From Cokeromyces recurvatus (taxonomy: Eukaryota; Mucoromycota; Mucoromycetes; Mucorales; Mucoraceae): 64,000 nt of DNA. Below, one piece after another: positions 442 through 36,038 of the stretch; position 1 is the stretch's first letter; the number at the start of each line of letters is the position of its first letter. Location: NCBI RefSeq assembly GCF_025118155.1, contig NW_026251388.1:248001-312000 (forward strand), in the 5' to 3' direction. Position numbers and translations under genes: made by a program. The notes under the pieces were generated by a model that did not search any database, had not been told where the DNA came from, and saw only the letters and a list, made by a program, of their open reading frames with translations.

Positions 442-2613
442 TATAGAGTTGAATTATTTACACATGTAACCATTAGAGGAAGAGGAAGAAGGAGAAGAAG
501 AAAAACTATATATATAGCACACAATCACTTTTTGTACATATACATATACATTGTAATATTTAATAAAACCTGTAGTATGCATCTTTATAAGAAAATCGTG
601 ATGCTTTTTTCTAACAGGCTTAAGAAAAACTGGTGCAACACTGAGAAGAGATTGAACTAATATGAATCTATTTCAAAGCCATTGAGATCCTTGTAGCTGA
701 GACGATTTTTATTTTTTTCTTCAATTCATTTTAACTTTATTAAACAATATCGACTTAATAATGTCATTTATCCCATACTGACCAGACCAGCAAGAGCAAT
801 TTGTAGATGAATACATTACTTCCGATAAAGAAATGGAAAAAAGAGACTTGTGATTGTAAACATACATTCTCATATACTTACATACGACATATTATTTATT
901 TTATACAAATTGTTAAATCCAATAATATGAATAAAAGTAAGTAGAGAGACAAAATAAGTGAACCGTCTAAACAAAGTATGATTTTTGATTATGGTTGGCT
1001 CTACAGGCCAGTATCTAACCAGGTTAACCATCAGGCTAACCTCTATGTCGTGTATATAATGATGTATTACACAGTATCTTATAATATACAGATTAGAGTC
1101 ATGAATATTATTTGATTTCAGTTTATAAGACATTCTTGTAATGAGAAAAATAATAATATTATAATAAATACTAACGTTACGAAATAATGACAAGCCAAAC
1201 AATAGTATAAAGAGTTATAAATGATAAAGACATATATGAATTATAGACTGTACCTATTAGTCATATATACACATTATTGTTATAATATTATCTAGTATAC
1301 TATCTATACAATATACAATATAATGACATTCATTCAAGTAGTACATTGAAGAATGAATATAGAACACAAAGAAATCTATATCAAAAAGCATCTTTCCTAT
1401 ATCATTCACAGGTATGAACAAATGAGATCTCATTATTTCATTTCAAGGAAAATAACCAAACCTGCTAGATCGAGCACGAATAATTTAATATTTATTAGAG
1501 TGAGTTAACTGAGATTAATTCTTCATTCTGTTCCTGTTGCAAAGTAACCCGTTCTCCACAAGTTATAAATAAGCACTCCTTTTTTAGAGCTTAGCTTTTT
1601 TAATTTATTCTTATTTAATTTCTTCATAAAAAATCATTTAGCATTTATAATAAATTTAGAGATGTTATCTTAGTTCTTTTTAGAACTGTCATGAGCTGAT
1701 TTATAATGTCATGTTTCTTGATTAAACATTCGGATCAAGAAATTCATCATCTATAACATAACTTATTCGATCGTAACTAACACTTTTCTGACTCACATCT
1801 TATGTCAGGCCTCTTTAACAATTCTTATAAATACTCTCATCAATTTAAATTCATAAATAAAATCATTGACACTAGAACCATTGTTCAGTCTCGTTGACTT
1901 TCTCTTGTCTTTTTATTATTTTTATTTGATATTTTACAAGTAATATCACACATATTTCGATGTTAGAACAGTATATAGAATAAAATGCATTGTATACTAT
2001 ATAAAGGGGGAGGGGAAAGATTACTGTGAATGCAAGTCAAAGATACTTAAACTGGTTTTCATAGCATGCATCAACGAAGCTAAAATCGTTAATCTTTACA
2101 ACATCATTTTGGCAAAAGAATGATTTTAAGCACAACACAAGAGAGACTAGACTTATCAAATACCCCTTGTTAGAAAATAGTAGTATATTGTACAAATGAG
2201 ATGCAAATTAGTTGCCTAAATAGGAAAAAGAAAGTTGATGAGAATATAAACAAAAAAGTGAAAACAAAAGACATTTATTTTATTTACTTTTCTTTTCTTT
2301 AGCATAAACACATTTCATATAGTCATAAAGAAGATATAAAATTGACAACATTTTACTATTTTACACATTGTTACTTTTTATAAGAAAGAAAGAAAATTAA
2401 ATAATGTAACTGTGTGTATTAAATGTGGGGTAACACATATTCTTATCGATTTCATATGATTGTGACTGTAATTTACAACAACGACCTCCTTATTCTTATA
2501 AAAAAGTAGATATTCAAAGTTATTTTTTCTTCTTTTTCTTCTTTATTATTACTATTTCTTTTGTAGGTAAGTCATTAAATAATACTATTTTATTCTTCTT
2601 CTTCTTCCCTGCC

Positions 2614-2779
2614 CTAGGAGGAAATTCTTTTTCTCATAGTTACCACTTATGTAACGCCTTGTGAATCAACAAGACACCCTATCTTGCCCTCCTTGAATTA
2701 GGAGGACATTGTAGGGTATCTTGTTGATTCAGAGGGCATTACATATTGTGCTAGCTATGGGTTTTTTCTAACCTCCTAG
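2614..2779. repeat. Foldback (imperfect inverted repeat), MITE-like
   Basis: Inner arms of about 44 bp lie at 2650-2694 and 2700-2743 and read as imperfect reverse complements; both contain the core GAATCAACAAGA or its complement, with a loop of only a few bases. An outer pair, CTAGGAGG at 2614-2621 and CCTCCTAG at 2772-2779, extends the palindrome. No coding sequence lies inside. It could be a miniature inverted-repeat element or a transcribed hairpin. Confidence 0.7.
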
Positions 2780-3025
2780 TAAAAATAAAAAATACAAGAA
2801 CAAAGAAGGTGCAACGAATCCTAGCCTCCACGCGGCCACCTTTGGACTGCAGTAAATATTATTATTTTTACTGTTGACGAATTGGGGATTCACTTTTTTA
2901 TATATGAAATAAAAATGAAAATAAAATACAATAAATATCTTTTTTTTTACGCGTCTTTTAATAATCTTGTGCCTTTTCTTTTTTCTCTAAGAAAAAATAT
3001 CTATTTTTCTTTAACTAAATTGTCT

Positions 3026-3074
3026 TGGCCAATTTTTCATTTCGTCTCAACTAGATTCACTGAAAATTTGGCCA
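3026..3074. repeat. Short inverted repeat
   Basis: Arms 3026-3039 (TGGCCAATTTTTCA) and 3061-3074 (TGAAAATTTGGCCA) are reverse complements at 13 of 14 positions, with a 21-nt loop. It sits 240 bp from the larger foldback and may be another remnant of a small mobile element. Confidence 0.55.
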
Positions 3075-3217
3075 TCCCACTAGAAAGAAATTGTGTCCAA
3101 ATATTTATTCAAAACCCAATATATTAAATAATTATTATTATTATTATTATTTTCTTTTTGGTATAGAAAGAAAAGCTATAAAGTCTTGTTATTGATTATA
3201 CATTTACAAATTTCTAA

Positions 3218-4818
3218 TTATGATGAACTCTTCTTGGTAATACGCTTTTTATTAAGACGTTTATCATCGTGTAATTCCTATTTCAAGAAGTTAGTCATGT
3301 TTATTTAAGGAAAAAAAACACTCATTTCATAATTTACCATGCTAGCTGCACGTTTTGCTGCAGTGACTTCACCTAATTCATCAATAATATCATTTTCATT
3401 CACTTCATATTTTTCCATTTGTTTATCTGAAAAAAATCATATGTCAATCAAACCTTCACTATGAACAAATTGATAATAACTTACTTATACGTGCTTCAAT
3501 GTTTTGAATAAGTTGAATATCTCTTTCAGTCACAATCGAAATAGCTTTACCTCCTCTACCAGCACGAGCTGTACGACCTACACGATGAATATAATCTGTA
3601 GGATCTCGAGGAATATCGTAATTTAATACACATTCCACTGAGGGAATATCTAAACCACTATATAATACAATCATGGTTAAATATCATAATAAAATTTATT
3701 TAATTTAATTTTTTTTTTGTATCTTACCGAGAACCAACATCAGTTGAAATTAGGATCTTTATAACTTCAGCTCTAAATTTACCGAGTGAATTTAAACGTT
3801 CCTGTTGTGTCATTTTGGAGTGAAGTCCTGTACATCGAATACCCAATTCTTTTAACATATTTGTTATTAATTCAGCTGTTGAGCATCTTCCACAGAAAAT
3901 AATAATAGACTTGTCATTTAAATCATCTGAACGTAATAAATGTGTTAAATAGACTATTTTTACTTGTGATGGTACAAACAAATAGAATTGATCCAAAGTA
4001 CTGACAGTAGAGATAGACATATCGCAAACATGAACAAAGGGACGTTTTTTAGGATCTTCTTCAGCATCACGTAACGCTAAAATCGAATCTGTCATTGTAG
4101 CTGTGAAAAGAAGGGTATGTCTGTCTTTGGGTAGTAAAGGTAAAATGACTTCAAGTTCAGGTGCAAAAGTGGAAGATAACATTCGATCAGCTTCATCCAT
4201 AACTAAAAATTTACAACGTCTCAAATCTACTGCGCCTGAACTGCTTCTGATATGATCTCGAAGTCGACCTGGTGTTGCAATAATAACATGTGGTTTTTTT
4301 GAAAGTTCAATAGCTTGTTTCATCATATCTAATCATGTTTAAATTAAGATAAAAGATGAGTGTTAACTTGAATATAATATGTATATATATATATATATAA
4401 TAAGCTTACCCATGCCACCAACAACAACACATTCTTTTAGGCCAACTCCTTTACCAAGAACTCGAAATTGTTCCGCAATTTGAAATGCAAGTTCTCTTGT
4501 AGGTGTTAAAACGAGAGCAAATACACCGTAAGGATCTTCTGATAATTTTTGTAAAATCGGAAGTGCAAATGCAGCAGTTTTACCTGAACCTGTCTTTGCT
4601 CCACCAATAACATCTTTACCAGCAAGAATAGGTGGTATACAAGCTCTTTGAATCTCTGTAGGCTCTTTGATTGACATGGCTTTTAAAGTTTCACAAAGCC
4701 AATCATCAATTCCAAGATCAGCAAAGGTGGAGCCTTGAGGCGCAATTGTTTGTTTCTTTTTCTCGACTGCTTTTTTTTGTGAGGCAGCAACTCTACTTAA
4801 TGTTCTACTTTCTGTCAT
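3218..4818 (-). CDS. DBP8: ATP-dependent DEAD-box RNA helicase Dbp8 (DDX49)
   Basis: Nucleolar DEAD-box helicase needed for 18S rRNA maturation in the small-subunit processome. Five exons join in frame to 443 residues: 4410-4818, 3728-4328, 3485-3657, 3338-3426 and 3218-3277. Visible motifs in order: Q motif with the [11 protein letters not shown] leader and EPTEIQ, motif [11 protein letters not shown], Ia PTRELAFQ, Ib [40 protein letters not shown], and [12 protein letters not shown]. The tail [18 protein letters not shown] followed by TAAKRAASM is typical of Dbp8 rather than of other DEAD-box proteins. The start at 4818 gives a short basic N-terminus of family-like length. Its promoter lies in the gap upstream of 4818, which also holds long T and A tracts. 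Introns are 58-81 nt. Confidence 0.93.
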
Positions 4819-31250: not shown

Positions 31251-31731
31251 AAAATGAAAAAAAAAAAGATCCAAGAATGAAACTGGCTCATACATATACG
31301 ATATTGGAATCTTTATGTTTTACAAGATAAATACCAAGGTAAAATGAAGGTGTTTTGTTCTGATTTCCTTATTGACTTTTCATTTGTAGTAAACGTGCTA
31401 AACAATATAGTGGAATACAAAGGATTTTTAGAGACACAAAAAGAATTAGGTTTAGATTCCACAAAAAAAGCAGTAATATGGGTCGTCCTGGATTATGCTG
31501 GTTTATCAACAAATGTTGAAGATTTAAAAGAGTTTCTCAGGTAAATACTAGATTAATTGACATATGATTAACCTATATGTTATCAGGCAAAGGAATATTA
31601 AAAAAATAATAATTGATAGACTCCCTATCACATCTGAAGTAGAAATTTATGAAACAGAGGTGTTGCTTCAAGACCAAAAGGCAATAAAGAAGTTCGATTG
31701 CAGAACACGACCTATACAAAGATCCTTATGA
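30551..31731 (+). CDS. Orphan protein, possible mitochondrial presequence; exon model partly unresolved
   Basis: Exon 1 starts at 30551 (ATG); its first 60 residues are rich in His, Tyr, Ser and Arg, and a presequence-like segment (SVAITRSVSTTQLKF) precedes NQENVAKALEKFQALSDEHE. It ends near 30944 (donor GTATGC). Exon 2 (from 31011) continues ETKAQVLKFINEISSTEPAL. Later exons read NVLNNIVEYKGFLETQKELG through DYAGLSTNVEDLKEFLR (to 31540) and, after a 46-nt intron, QRNIKKIIIDRLPITSEVEI to a stop at 31731. Between about 31095 and 31330, two competing frames, an A run (31218-31248) and no matching splice phase prevent a clean join; a plausible coding piece there is ENIEQFQLVLWENQIKLYGG. Either I miss an intron or the gene is damaged. 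No family recognised. Confidence 0.5.
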
Positions 31732-32355
31732 AAATATATCATTGCTCAATAAATTATTTTATAAATACTCTCTTGAATTAATATACTCCTTTTTTTATGA
31801 TAGTTTATCTTTACTCACAATATAATTGTTGTATATCGATCTGCAATTACATTAATAGCTTACTCTTTTATTGTATACAGGCTCTGGTTTAGCTACTACC
31901 ACCAAGTCCTCTCAGTTGGCTATCCGCAACATATTTAATTAAGTGCATCATGTTCTTACAAATAGACTTATAATAAATAAAACCATTTTAGTATTTCCTA
32001 ACTGCAGCATTAGTAATCGATTCATAACATTACATAATTATCTAGCTGACATCATATCTAAAAAGATATAATGAACAATGGCGTTGGTTCATAGTGGATT
32101 GGATAACAGAATAAGTTATTCCGAATGTCTTGCTGATTAGTTATTACTAAATGCAATCGACTACCTAATCTCAATGATTACTCGGTTTCGAAGCACATTA
32201 GAAAACTATATAAAGCCTAATGTGTGTTTTTTTTTTAGCTGTAAATAAAGATAACTTTTTTCAATAATCAGCTAGTCTGATCACATACTGGTTTTTATTT
32301 TATCCTTTTTTTTTTTTTTTTTGAAAAGCACGACGCTATTTTTCAACATTTTTCA
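31732..32355. other. Intergenic DNA 5' of the Fanzor relic
   Basis: About 620 bp, AT-rich, with a T run at 32307-32322. No gene seen. The last 30 bases contain ACGACGCTA (32330-32338), which may be an outer block of the element's inverted repeat. Confidence 0.45.
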
Positions 32356-32381
32356 GATGATTTGCTTACCTTTTTCGGATA
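32356..32381 (+). repeat. Left terminal inverted repeat
   Basis: 26 bp, reverse complement of 34275-34300 with one mismatch at the third base. Confidence 0.8.
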
Positions 32382-32451
32382 CAAATAAAGAAAACTTCTT
32401 CAAACACTTTAACAACATTTCTTTTTTTTCTTCAAGATTCTGTAGTATATA

Positions 32452-34083
32452 ATGAAGCAAAAGCGTGAAAAGAATCCAATTGACGATTTAACGATATCAA
32501 AAGGAAAGAAGGCTTTATCGAGTTAGTATCAAAAACATACATAGCGAGAGAGTATGTGCCATACTTTTTTTTTAAGATGTGGATCATGATACATCTACTT
32601 TGACGACGTTTGTTTCAACTTCACTTACTTTGACGCCACCTGCTTCTACTGATTTCACTTCGCTTACTTCTACTGCCTCTATATCACTTGCTTCTACAAG
32701 TTTTTCTTCTAGTAATTCACCTCATACTTCAAAGAAGATACAAAAAAAAAATAGAAAAAAAGCGTGCCTTGATCAATTTTAGAATGGAAACAGCAAGCAG
32801 TACAGTGGAAGAAACGGATACAGTAAAACATAAAGTAAAACAGTGTAAATGCGGCTCAACCACCCATCTAAGAGTAAACAGCAATGCATCCCCCCTAAAA
32901 AAGCAAAAAGAACCAACGCACGGTCCCAGACGAGAAAAAAGAGATCTTCGTGATCAAATGCTCTTTGAAAAATATTTGTAGAAACGCTAAGCTTGTTGAT
33001 CAAATATCTCTTGACACGGCACACACAACAAAAGTGATGTGGGTAAGATCGTTGTTTATCAACTATCTTTTTTTAAAGCTCTTAACGAAGGGTGAAGAAG
33101 TTCCGATTATGAGTCAGAATGATGTCTACTTCATCTTTACCGTAGTTACTGGTAAGGGCAAAAAGTCTCCCAGTTATATTCAACGATACTTTGTTGAGTT
33201 TTGCAATGAATGTGAAATTGATGACACAATCTTACGATCCCTCAAGAGTATTGGATGTTCTTCTATTTTATCCATTGTATATAAACAACACGATGTGCTC
33301 ATACGCAACCACGTATGTTAGAACCACGAAAGGAGAACAATTCGCTTCTTTATAGAATCCTTGTCCGATAAAGACTCCACATTTTTCGTTTGTAAGGGCT
33401 TATCTGTTAGCGAAAGAAAATCTCTAGCTAACTATATCTATTCGCTAAAGCTGAAGCAGAAATCCGTATGGCCGTCATCTGTCGAAAAAAATCAACATTT
33501 TGAAGAGATTGTACAAAAGATGGAGTCGTTATGGTCTAGCTATCAAGCATTAAGCTGTAACTCGGAAGATGGGTTCGTCTATAACAGCAGCAAATATCAT
33601 CAGAAGTCATCTACTGGTGAAAAGTCAGTTATTAATAATGTAAGCAAATTCTATCCACCTACCCCGACCGACCATAAAGAAAGGTCAGTAAAAACGATCA
33701 TTGCTTTGGGCAATGGTGTGTTTAATACTAGTTCACAAGGCAACAGGTCGTCGCCCGGTCAGAACTATTACACAAGCGTTGAAGAGGTATTGTGGGCAAC
33801 AGTTAGAAGTAGTAATGGTTGATGAATACCTCACCAGCTAAATCTGCAACAAGTTCAAGATCAGAAATATTAAGATTGTGGTGACCAAAAAATCAAAGCG
33901 AAGAGAACACACGATATTACAGTGTCAAAAAAAAACACTTGTAATATTATATGGAATCGCGACATTATGGCAACTCACAACATATTGGACTTGTTTTTAT
34001 TTGCTTTGAAAAATAATAATCAATGTCTGAGCCAATTCAAGCGTAAAGACGCAACCACCGATGAACCATCCCCGTGTGGCTGA
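32452..34083 (+). pseudogene. Decayed Fanzor (eukaryotic TnpB-like) nuclease gene, internally deleted
   Basis: Segments in order: a start MKQKREKNPIDDLTISKGKK at 32452 with an apparent intron; a Thr/Ser-rich linker; a Cys-knuckle region CKCGSTTHLR (about 32844); then IMSQNDVYFIFTVVTGKGKK and YFVEFCNECEIDD; then LSVSERKSLANYIYSLKLKQ with VWPSSVE; then IALGNGVF and RSSPGQNYYTSVEEVLWATV; then, in another frame, MVDEYLTS-stop-ICNK, a damaged zinc ribbon, and finally WNRDIMATHNILDLFLFALK, stop at 34083. NRD-x-MA-x-x-NI is the RuvC-III signature of TnpB/Fanzor proteins (Asp at 33961-33963). The expected RuvC-I D-P-G segment is absent, the ribbon has lost cysteines, and stops and frameshifts are present, so no active nuclease can be made. 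The family is recognised from memory of Mucorales Fanzor-like proteins. Confidence 0.7.
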
Positions 34084-34274
34084 TATGACTCTCTCATACG
34101 TCCGTACAGCGTAAGTTCTATATAAATATTTTTTTTTAAAAAAAAAAAAAGTTTACAAGTTTATTAATTATTATTTTTTTTTAACAGTCTTTACATTTTT
34201 AAAGGTTTGAATGATTTCTTGTTGGAACTCGTCTAAAACTAACTTTTTTTTTATCTGAATTTCCTTTTTTATTT

Positions 34275-34300
34275 TATCCGAAAAAGGTAAGCAAATCGTC
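34275..34300 (-). repeat. Right terminal inverted repeat
   Basis: 26 bp, reverse complement of 32356-32381 with one mismatch. Confidence 0.8.
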
Positions 34301-35226
34301 CAACTAACGTCGTTTGAATTCAAAGTGTAAAAACAGTATTCTTGTGACCTTGTTTTGGCAAAAGATGTAAAGAAAGAAAATTACAAATAAATCATCTGAG
34401 TTCATAAGTTGTATTCATTCAATATTGGTAATTGTAATAAAATATTTGGATAATTCAGTGTTCATGAAATATTATAGCAGTTACTACTACTACATTAAGA
34501 CTTTAATTATTTAAATTTGCACTATTTTGTTCTATATTTAGATATATAATTATCATTATTATTATATTATGCCCCTGAAACAATGGAACAGAAGTTTATT
34601 CTAAAAATAGTTAATGTTTGCTTTTTTTTCAAGTACGTATTATTCGTAATAACCAGCAATGAAATGACCGCATGTTCACTATCACTACTACTACTACTAC
34701 CACTACTACTACTATTATTATAACTTTCACTTGTATTATGTAATACACAGTAGTAATAATAAAAAGAAACTTTTTGTTAAACTCATTTAAAGAACAAATA
34801 TAATATCTTTATTTAAAAAAAAAATTTTTTTTTCATCTTGGAATATATTTCAACTTATCAAAAGTAAAGAAGAACCTTTCGTTACTTGTTGTATTTAAAT
34901 CCTTTAAATTATTAATTTAATATGATGAAATACACCAAAATAATTATTTCCTTTAAAGCAATACACTTTGTTTATTGGTCGTGAAATAATGAAAAGACTC
35001 TTTCTTTTTCCTTTTTTCGGAATCATAATCGATAAATTTAAAGTCAGTTTATAAAAAGAAAAAATAAGGGCAACAACAACAACCAATTTTTTTAATAATT
35101 TATTTTTTATTTTTATTTTCTATCTCCCCTTTTTTATTTTCAATATCATAAAGTAAATAGTTTTTCTTTTTCTTTTTTTTTTTTTTTTTTTTTTTTTTTT
35201 GATTAATCTAAATTACTTTAATAGTC
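34301..35226. other. RHO1 upstream region
   Basis: 925 bp between the Fanzor element and RHO1. Contains a CTA-type microsatellite (about 34677-34720), and a pyrimidine tract with about 30 T directly upstream of the RHO1 start (35172-35201), typical of promoter-proximal T tracts in this window. Confidence 0.5.

Positions 35227-36038
<812 letters not shown>

Follow-up and report, generated by a model that had tools for sequence, protein, structure and literature searches.

Fanzor proteins are eukaryotic RNA-guided DNA-cutting enzymes, and transposons built around Fanzor1 have been described before. The Spu-1 element of Spizellomyces punctatus, which carries SpuFz1, is reported with repeats of 30 nt and with 134 ghosts that lack the ORF (PMC10432273). 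Fanzor1 is also described within Tc/mariner elements (PUl-4 and others), where the TIRs are identical to those of confirmed mariner elements, and in the Mucorales within the families ROr-4, PBl-3 and MCi-4 (PMC3627910). In published Fanzor1 guide RNAs, the first stem consists of seven pairs; those of S. punctatus and Parasitella are described with one second stem before the guide and lengths of 90 and 75 nt (PMC11423790). For an ascovirus Fanzor1, the terminal repeat and the target-site duplication are predicted to lie within the scaffold (PMC10711439).

Here, we analyzed a window of 64,000 nucleotides (C12:248001-312000) from the 28.05-Mb genome of Cokeromyces recurvatus (Mucorales, Mucoraceae), in which an initial annotation had noted an inverted repeat around a Fanzor relic. 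The window copy, hereafter W, is very likely the decayed and non-autonomous remnant of a DNA transposon that carried Fanzor1 and had long terminal inverted repeats at TA target sites, that is, Tc1/mariner-type ends. It is a fresh example of an already known sort of element and not a novel class, and it would add a Mucorales Fanzor1 transposon family with TA-type ends. As described for Spu-1, a Fanzor1 lies between inverted repeats with no transposase found between them and with many partial copies, and the right-end region is retained in gene-less copies, as in the Spu-1 ghosts (PMC10432273). Unlike those ghosts, W keeps both ends of its gene and has lost about 1.19 kb inside, and its repeats are longer (PMC10432273). 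With PUl-4 and its like it shares a Fanzor1 as the only gene, TA duplications and TIRs, whereas no cognate transposase with W-type repeats was found at the five transposase loci examined (PMC3627910). The Mucorales families come from the same order and likewise have TIRs and no internal transposase, but their TIRs are MuDr-like and flanked by 9-bp duplications, unlike those of W (PMC3627910).

The element spans 32288-34336 and has a TA on both sides, presumably the target-site duplication, at 32286-32287 (by alignment of the two ends) and 34337-34338 (from the sequence, the alignment and an end-pattern search). This copy has kept its two ends as well as the non-coding region on the right. The 26-bp inverted repeat of the initial annotation is real, its arms 32356-32381 (plus strand; seen in the sequence, the inverted-repeat listing and the pattern search) and 34275-34300 pairing at 25 of 26 positions. 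These arms lie within a 34-nt inverted repeat (32356-32389 and 34267-34300; 88% complementary), and no longer one is listed for 31800-34900. As element ends, they had been drawn too narrowly, and the 26 bp form the inner part of a terminal repeat of 70-100 bp. Under a terminal-repeat profile built from matches that include W, the left repeat (32288-32389) scores E 6.8e-8 and the right repeat (34265-34336) E 7.6e-11. The outer part of the left repeat is diverged and enlarged by a T run, while its inner part, 32356-32389, is nearly perfect. At the termini of the family, TA precedes YAGTTTTTACACTTTGAATTC...; the right end of W stops at 34336 before its TA, and the left end, placed by alignment at 32288 after a TA, is so diverged that the end-pattern search missed it.

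The terminal repeat is not unique to this locus. Its 23-bp core, at up to three mismatches, has 22 matches in the genome, W's two arms counted, versus 1 for the reversed pattern, and a consensus of 100 bases has at least 41 (40 of 67 candidates scored). Because of this excess, and because the enclosed DNA matches 11 other loci, the inverted repeat is not a product of chance. A fortuitous inverted repeat that happens to enclose an unrelated pseudogene, or duplication of a genomic segment in place of transposition, is thus already contradicted and has next to no probability. One pair of g1 elements, at C18:85363 and C27:313645, does have 1.2 kb of right flank in common at 99.5% (93% in the left regions compared), as segmental duplication would give, but the flanks of W and of the copy L018, like those of all six pairs among the copies L011, L014, L015 and L016, share nothing at E 1e-3.

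The nature of the ends was assessed by the end pattern. At up to one edit, it gave 28 termini of distinct flank, four repeats of a flank having been dropped, and TA precedes 22 of them; of the six well-matched termini without it, four have CA or TG. At up to three edits, a setting that admits spurious places and misplaces the left end of W, TA precedes 27 of 50. At the element pairs with both ends read, no 9-bp duplication was seen by eye. TA at the ends without a 9-bp duplication is the signature of Tc1/mariner transposition: by alignment, W carries on both sides the presumed TA duplication of that superfamily, and by eye it lacks the 9-bp duplication of MuDr/MULE elements. Long terminal repeats, and a host of the same order as the published MuDr-like Fanzor1 families (PMC3627910), would suit a MuDr-type (MULE) element, but the absence of a 9-bp direct repeat, the TA at most well-matched termini and a genome with a single MULE match make that assignment very unlikely.

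Between the repeats, the initial annotation had described a broken gene with a RuvC-III motif, a damaged zinc ribbon, no RuvC-I and no transposase frame, and our analysis agrees on each of these points. The gene, on the plus strand, is split into ORF pieces in several frames, with a start codon at 32452. Its N-terminal half, delimited by tblastn and ORFs, runs from there to a deletion junction (32452-33570), and the C-terminal remainder (33572-34083, by tblastn) holds the RuvC-II side, the zinc ribbon and RuvC-III. The last reads NRDIMATHNI at 33955-33984, in the sequence and its ORFs and in alignment with the family. Read by eye, the zinc ribbon contains a stop codon, has lost its second cysteine and is frameshifted near 33930. 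W is without the counterpart of bases 2206-3395 of the copy L009, which carry the RuvC-I block VWGVDPGVN. Since this aspartate block is absent through deletion, W is a Fanzor1 relic and not a working enzyme, and nothing in the sequence indicates that the copy functions at present. No transposase frame was seen by eye among the ORFs inside W.

Relatives of the protein were aligned to the locus by tblastn, P0001 and P0004 matching 32600-33654, P0008 matching 33523-34071 (E 5.4e-30) and P0009 matching 33574-34074 (E 2.3e-37). The N-terminal half of this Fanzor family is common to proteins of Rhizopus microsporus, Mucor flavus and Thamnidium elegans. The Pfam zinc-ribbon family PF07282 (TNB) was found in a fragment of the sibling copy L011 (E 1.2e-9; 38.6 bits versus a cut-off of 26.3), whereas a fragment of the sibling L012 scored 20.4 bits, below that cut-off, and the four ORF pieces of W itself had no TNB match in Pfam. 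The assignment through TNB is therefore carried by the siblings, at 85-95% DNA identity. The named relatives P0008, P0009 and P0010 also lie below the cut-off (25.5, 18.9 and 18.4 bits versus 26.3).

From 12 C-terminal pieces, including two from the ORFs of W, a profile was built and compared with the PDB. The top matches were the three solved Fanzor1 proteins, those of Guillardia theta (4.2e-9), Parasitella parasitica (6.4e-9) and S. punctatus (1.2e-8), followed at small margins by TranC (3.2e-7). Among the 19 sequences at E<=0.01, 17 are named Fanzor, TranC, TnpB/OrfB or Cas12/CRISPR, and two only 'Transposase'. With Fanzor1 first and the TnpB/Cas12 clan next, the protein falls inside the TnpB/Fanzor clan, as had been proposed, and by this profile the W family is nearer to Fanzor1 than to other members of the clan. 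The Parasitella protein (PDB 9cf0) is, like that of W, a Mucorales Fanzor1 (PMC11423790).

The DNA of 32300-34350 matches 11 other loci (L009-L019) across the gene body at approximately 85-95% identity, and further loci at the right end only, so that there are at least 12 dispersed copies including W; as the best candidates were scored, all copy counts are lower bounds. Full-length copies of about 3 kb are present elsewhere in the genome, in broken frames. They read as a Fanzor with RuvC-I (in L009, VWGVDPGVN) and with a zinc ribbon and RuvC-III (DEYLTSQICNKC...WNRDI, from pieces in several copies). This full-length parent shows only Fanzor1 and a 3' non-coding end.

Relative to L009, the deletion in W amounts to about 1190 bases and took RuvC-I and its neighbors. 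Its junction, at 33570-33572 (plus strand), recurs letter for letter in L018 (C12:965680-967446), some 0.7 Mb away, and the flanks of the two loci show no similarity at E 1e-3. This recurrence at a second, unrelated locus bears out the earlier view of W as a shortened non-autonomous derivative, and the W/L018 form was probably mobilized in trans. Two other deletions are likewise common to copies with unrelated flanks, one of 210 bases in L011, L014 and L015 and one of 359 bases in L014, L015 and L016; flank similarity at E 1e-3 is absent in all six pairs of these four loci. Deletions common to unrelated sites suggest that such elements can spread without an intact Fanzor in cis.

The combinations of these two deletions conflict, L011 having the 210-base deletion alone, L016 the 359-base deletion alone, and L014 and L015 both. 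Such a pattern conflicts with descent by simple branching; it points to recombination or conversion among dispersed copies and weakens the step from a shared deletion to movement after the deletion. Accordingly, the W/L018 deletion might have passed by gene conversion from one older insertion to another, with the shortened form itself never having moved. The conflicting combinations are what recombination between copies would give, but with W and L018 about 0.7 Mb apart in unrelated flanks, exactly this tract would have to be carried from one to the other, and we regard conversion as unlikely here, if worth keeping in mind. The well-aligned copies differ by roughly 7-10% pairwise in a star-like manner (L015, L016, L017 and L019, with distances inflated by misalignment, were left out), and among the copies compared there is no sign of movement today.

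In bacteria, TldR is the comparison case of a nuclease-dead protein having its own function. A similar fate for the shortened Fanzor, retained in frame as a nuclease-dead protein and decayed only later, would be in keeping with a junction that preserves the frame in both copies and with the 268-aa open frame of L018 that spans it. A frame is, however, kept by chance in one of three cases, both copies carry frameshifts, and the differences between W and L018 fall on codon positions 1/2/3 as 22/9/12 (of 308/308/306), with no third-position excess; retention of this kind is highly improbable. Among the copies as a whole, 208 of 763 coding sites are variable (78/71/59 of 254/254/255 by codon position), again with no third-position excess and no sign of protein constraint.

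The locus L021 (C9:271506-271700) is a miniature of about 190 bases that consists of both terminal repeats and the right-end non-coding module only, and it resembles the published ghost elements. In L019 (C40:9900-16200), a W-family copy, a reverse-transcriptase piece is joined to the Fanzor frame in the same orientation, and the family similarity stops there.

A source of transposase for W may be sought among the Tc1/mariner-type DDE_3 domains, of which the genome holds at least 194 matches (150 of 403 candidates scored). They form several groups of equal score, and their open frames are mostly 450-489 aa long. Four transposase loci were checked for repeats of their own; two were resolvable, and these were unlike those of W beyond a generic TA-CA start. 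Among the matches listed, comparison by eye placed three repeats within 6 kb of a DDE_3 position (on C20, and on C1 near 698 kb and 515 kb). The C20 match, 1.2 kb from a repeat, proved to be a neighboring transposase copy and not an occupant of the element. A stretch between repeats at C1 144.4-151.3 kb, considered as an autonomous copy, contains a Fanzor-like frame and no transposase by eye among its four frames of at least 110 aa.

In the scenario we favor, a single deletion of about 1190 bases would have removed RuvC-I from one copy of a Fanzor1 element, and the shortened form would then have moved in trans through a Tc1/mariner-class transposase encoded elsewhere. By analogy with known systems, intact relatives may use Fanzor1, guided by an RNA that derives from the right end and the adjoining flank, to cut the empty site and so help the element persist. 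If a guide RNA were still formed from W, the flank at 34339-34353 (plus strand) would, judging from published Fanzor1 loci, serve as its guide.

W stands in a genome rich in Fanzor genes. The TNB family has 105 matches at E<=0.1, 61 of them above the cut-off, and 18 of the 30 best have a match to the terminal-repeat profile downstream in the correct orientation; five of these 18 are weak (E 0.003-0.034), four of them at g3 loci, whose ends otherwise differ. In a tree of 24 C-terminal pieces (9 of the 12 g1 rows, three being left out), lineage g1 is separated from g2, g3 and the W family with support 100/100. Despite this deep separation, the W family and g1 have one terminal repeat in common, whereas g2 and g3 end in other sequences, by eye also before TA. 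Either repeats and Fanzor lineages have been reassorted, or the ancestral repeat was g1-like and g2 and g3 later acquired others in its place. Within the literature searched, no paper combined Fanzor with the name Mucoromycota. With 61 zinc-ribbon matches above the cut-off in 28 Mb, three terminal-repeat types and 3' RNA hairpins, the genome of C. recurvatus is a convenient setting in which to study the role that Fanzor plays for its transposon and the way its guide RNA arises.

In g1, two hairpins lie 3' of the stop codon. In a set of 12 distinct sequences (15 prepared, three duplicates left out), standard pairs fill 89.8% of the pair cells versus 72.3% in shuffled alignments, and the covariation score is 0.571 versus 0.221, with 0 of 500 shuffles as high in either measure; no slid version exceeds 0.146. 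At one pair, five types are seen. Of the five measures, two do not rise above the shuffles, namely double-change pairs (194/500) and further pair types (310/500). Consensus folding gave -1.47 for g1 (shuffled mean -0.03, lowest of 100 shuffles -1.54) and -9.59 for g3 (mean -3.82, lowest -12.11), and no signal for g2, in which one row was spoiled. Since shuffles reach lower energies than the g1 and g3 folds, we relied on the covariation test, from which the g1 hairpins are good candidates for the guide-RNA scaffold.

Covariation of this kind was seen in g1 only, and not in the W family, whose hairpin differs from those of g1 and comes from folding. In W, this hairpin is predicted over the stop codon at 34080-34109 (plus strand) as a candidate first stem of a guide-RNA scaffold. 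The Parasitella guide RNA is described with two stem loops before the guide (PMC11423790). The hairpin block shows no extra conservation in the W family, with 8.0% pairwise difference versus 7-8% for the element. An RNA model (R1) searched over 33 loci had one match, in L020 beside another Fanzor, and none in the W family, and Rfam gave 0 matches at E up to 0.5 over 31500-35300.

Behind the hairpin region, the motif TTACAGGTAAG follows in 28 of the 30 best loci at up to two substitutions, L063 and L066 needing three, and it lies 3' of the hairpins in three deep Fanzor lineages, in the W family shifted by one base. Several of its forms resemble a splice donor (GTAAG and GTACG, with GTATG and GTGAG in the W family and L024); the less donor-like forms GTAAA, GTAAC, GTATC and GTATA all occur in g1. 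Acceptor-like sites stand at or near the element end, as TACAG/TA in g2 and CCTAG/TTTC in g3. In W, an intron-like stretch (34111-34187, plus strand, from sequence and alignment) begins with GTAAGT and ends with a T-run and AACAG at 34187, and by eye the NCBI model P0006 seems to share this acceptor. At two g3 loci, folding the motif joined to CCTAG/TTTC gives a second stem, of which the target-site TA is a part.

These features would allow a guide RNA that is finished by splicing, in which the scaffold ends at UUACAG|GURNG, the right terminal repeat acts as an intron, and the joined sequence at or beyond the element end becomes the guide. We regard this as a speculative and rather unlikely idea, as the g1 acceptors are unconvincing and the second g1 hairpin already precedes the motif. 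Depletion of AG before the presumed acceptor, tested in four of the eight g3 loci and in none of g2, was weak (L056, L058, L060 and L061: p 0.010, 0.119, 0.072 and 0.148 over the whole stretch, and 0.036, 0.18, 0.058 and 0.073 over the last 100 bases). Among the papers listed by a literature search on Fanzor with introns and splicing, the titles concern other subjects.

Among the loci compared, several Fanzor elements have pieces of a non-LTR reverse-transcriptase frame downstream of their right ends, identically oriented and with varied start points in the frame. They lie 0-15 bases past the right end at L012 (from 4105), L070 (2007), L073 (~1953) and L044 (1603), and within about 220 bases downstream of it at L024 (from 1150), L069 and L021. 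At L012 and L070, TA is present at both ends and the left flank has no reverse-transcriptase match, an arrangement for which simple insertion into a retrotransposon does not account.

Of four neighboring ORFs of W scanned against Pfam, the two upstream had no match, and the other two represent fragments of a Ras-family GTPase gene that starts near 35227. W and several other copies contain long T/A runs inside coding parts, translated as poly-F or poly-K, which suggests frequent run expansion in the C. recurvatus genome. About 2.9 kb past the right end of the window, at C12:314932-318307, lies a g1 Fanzor element of 3.4 kb that is flanked by TA on each side, contains long open frames and is possibly intact.
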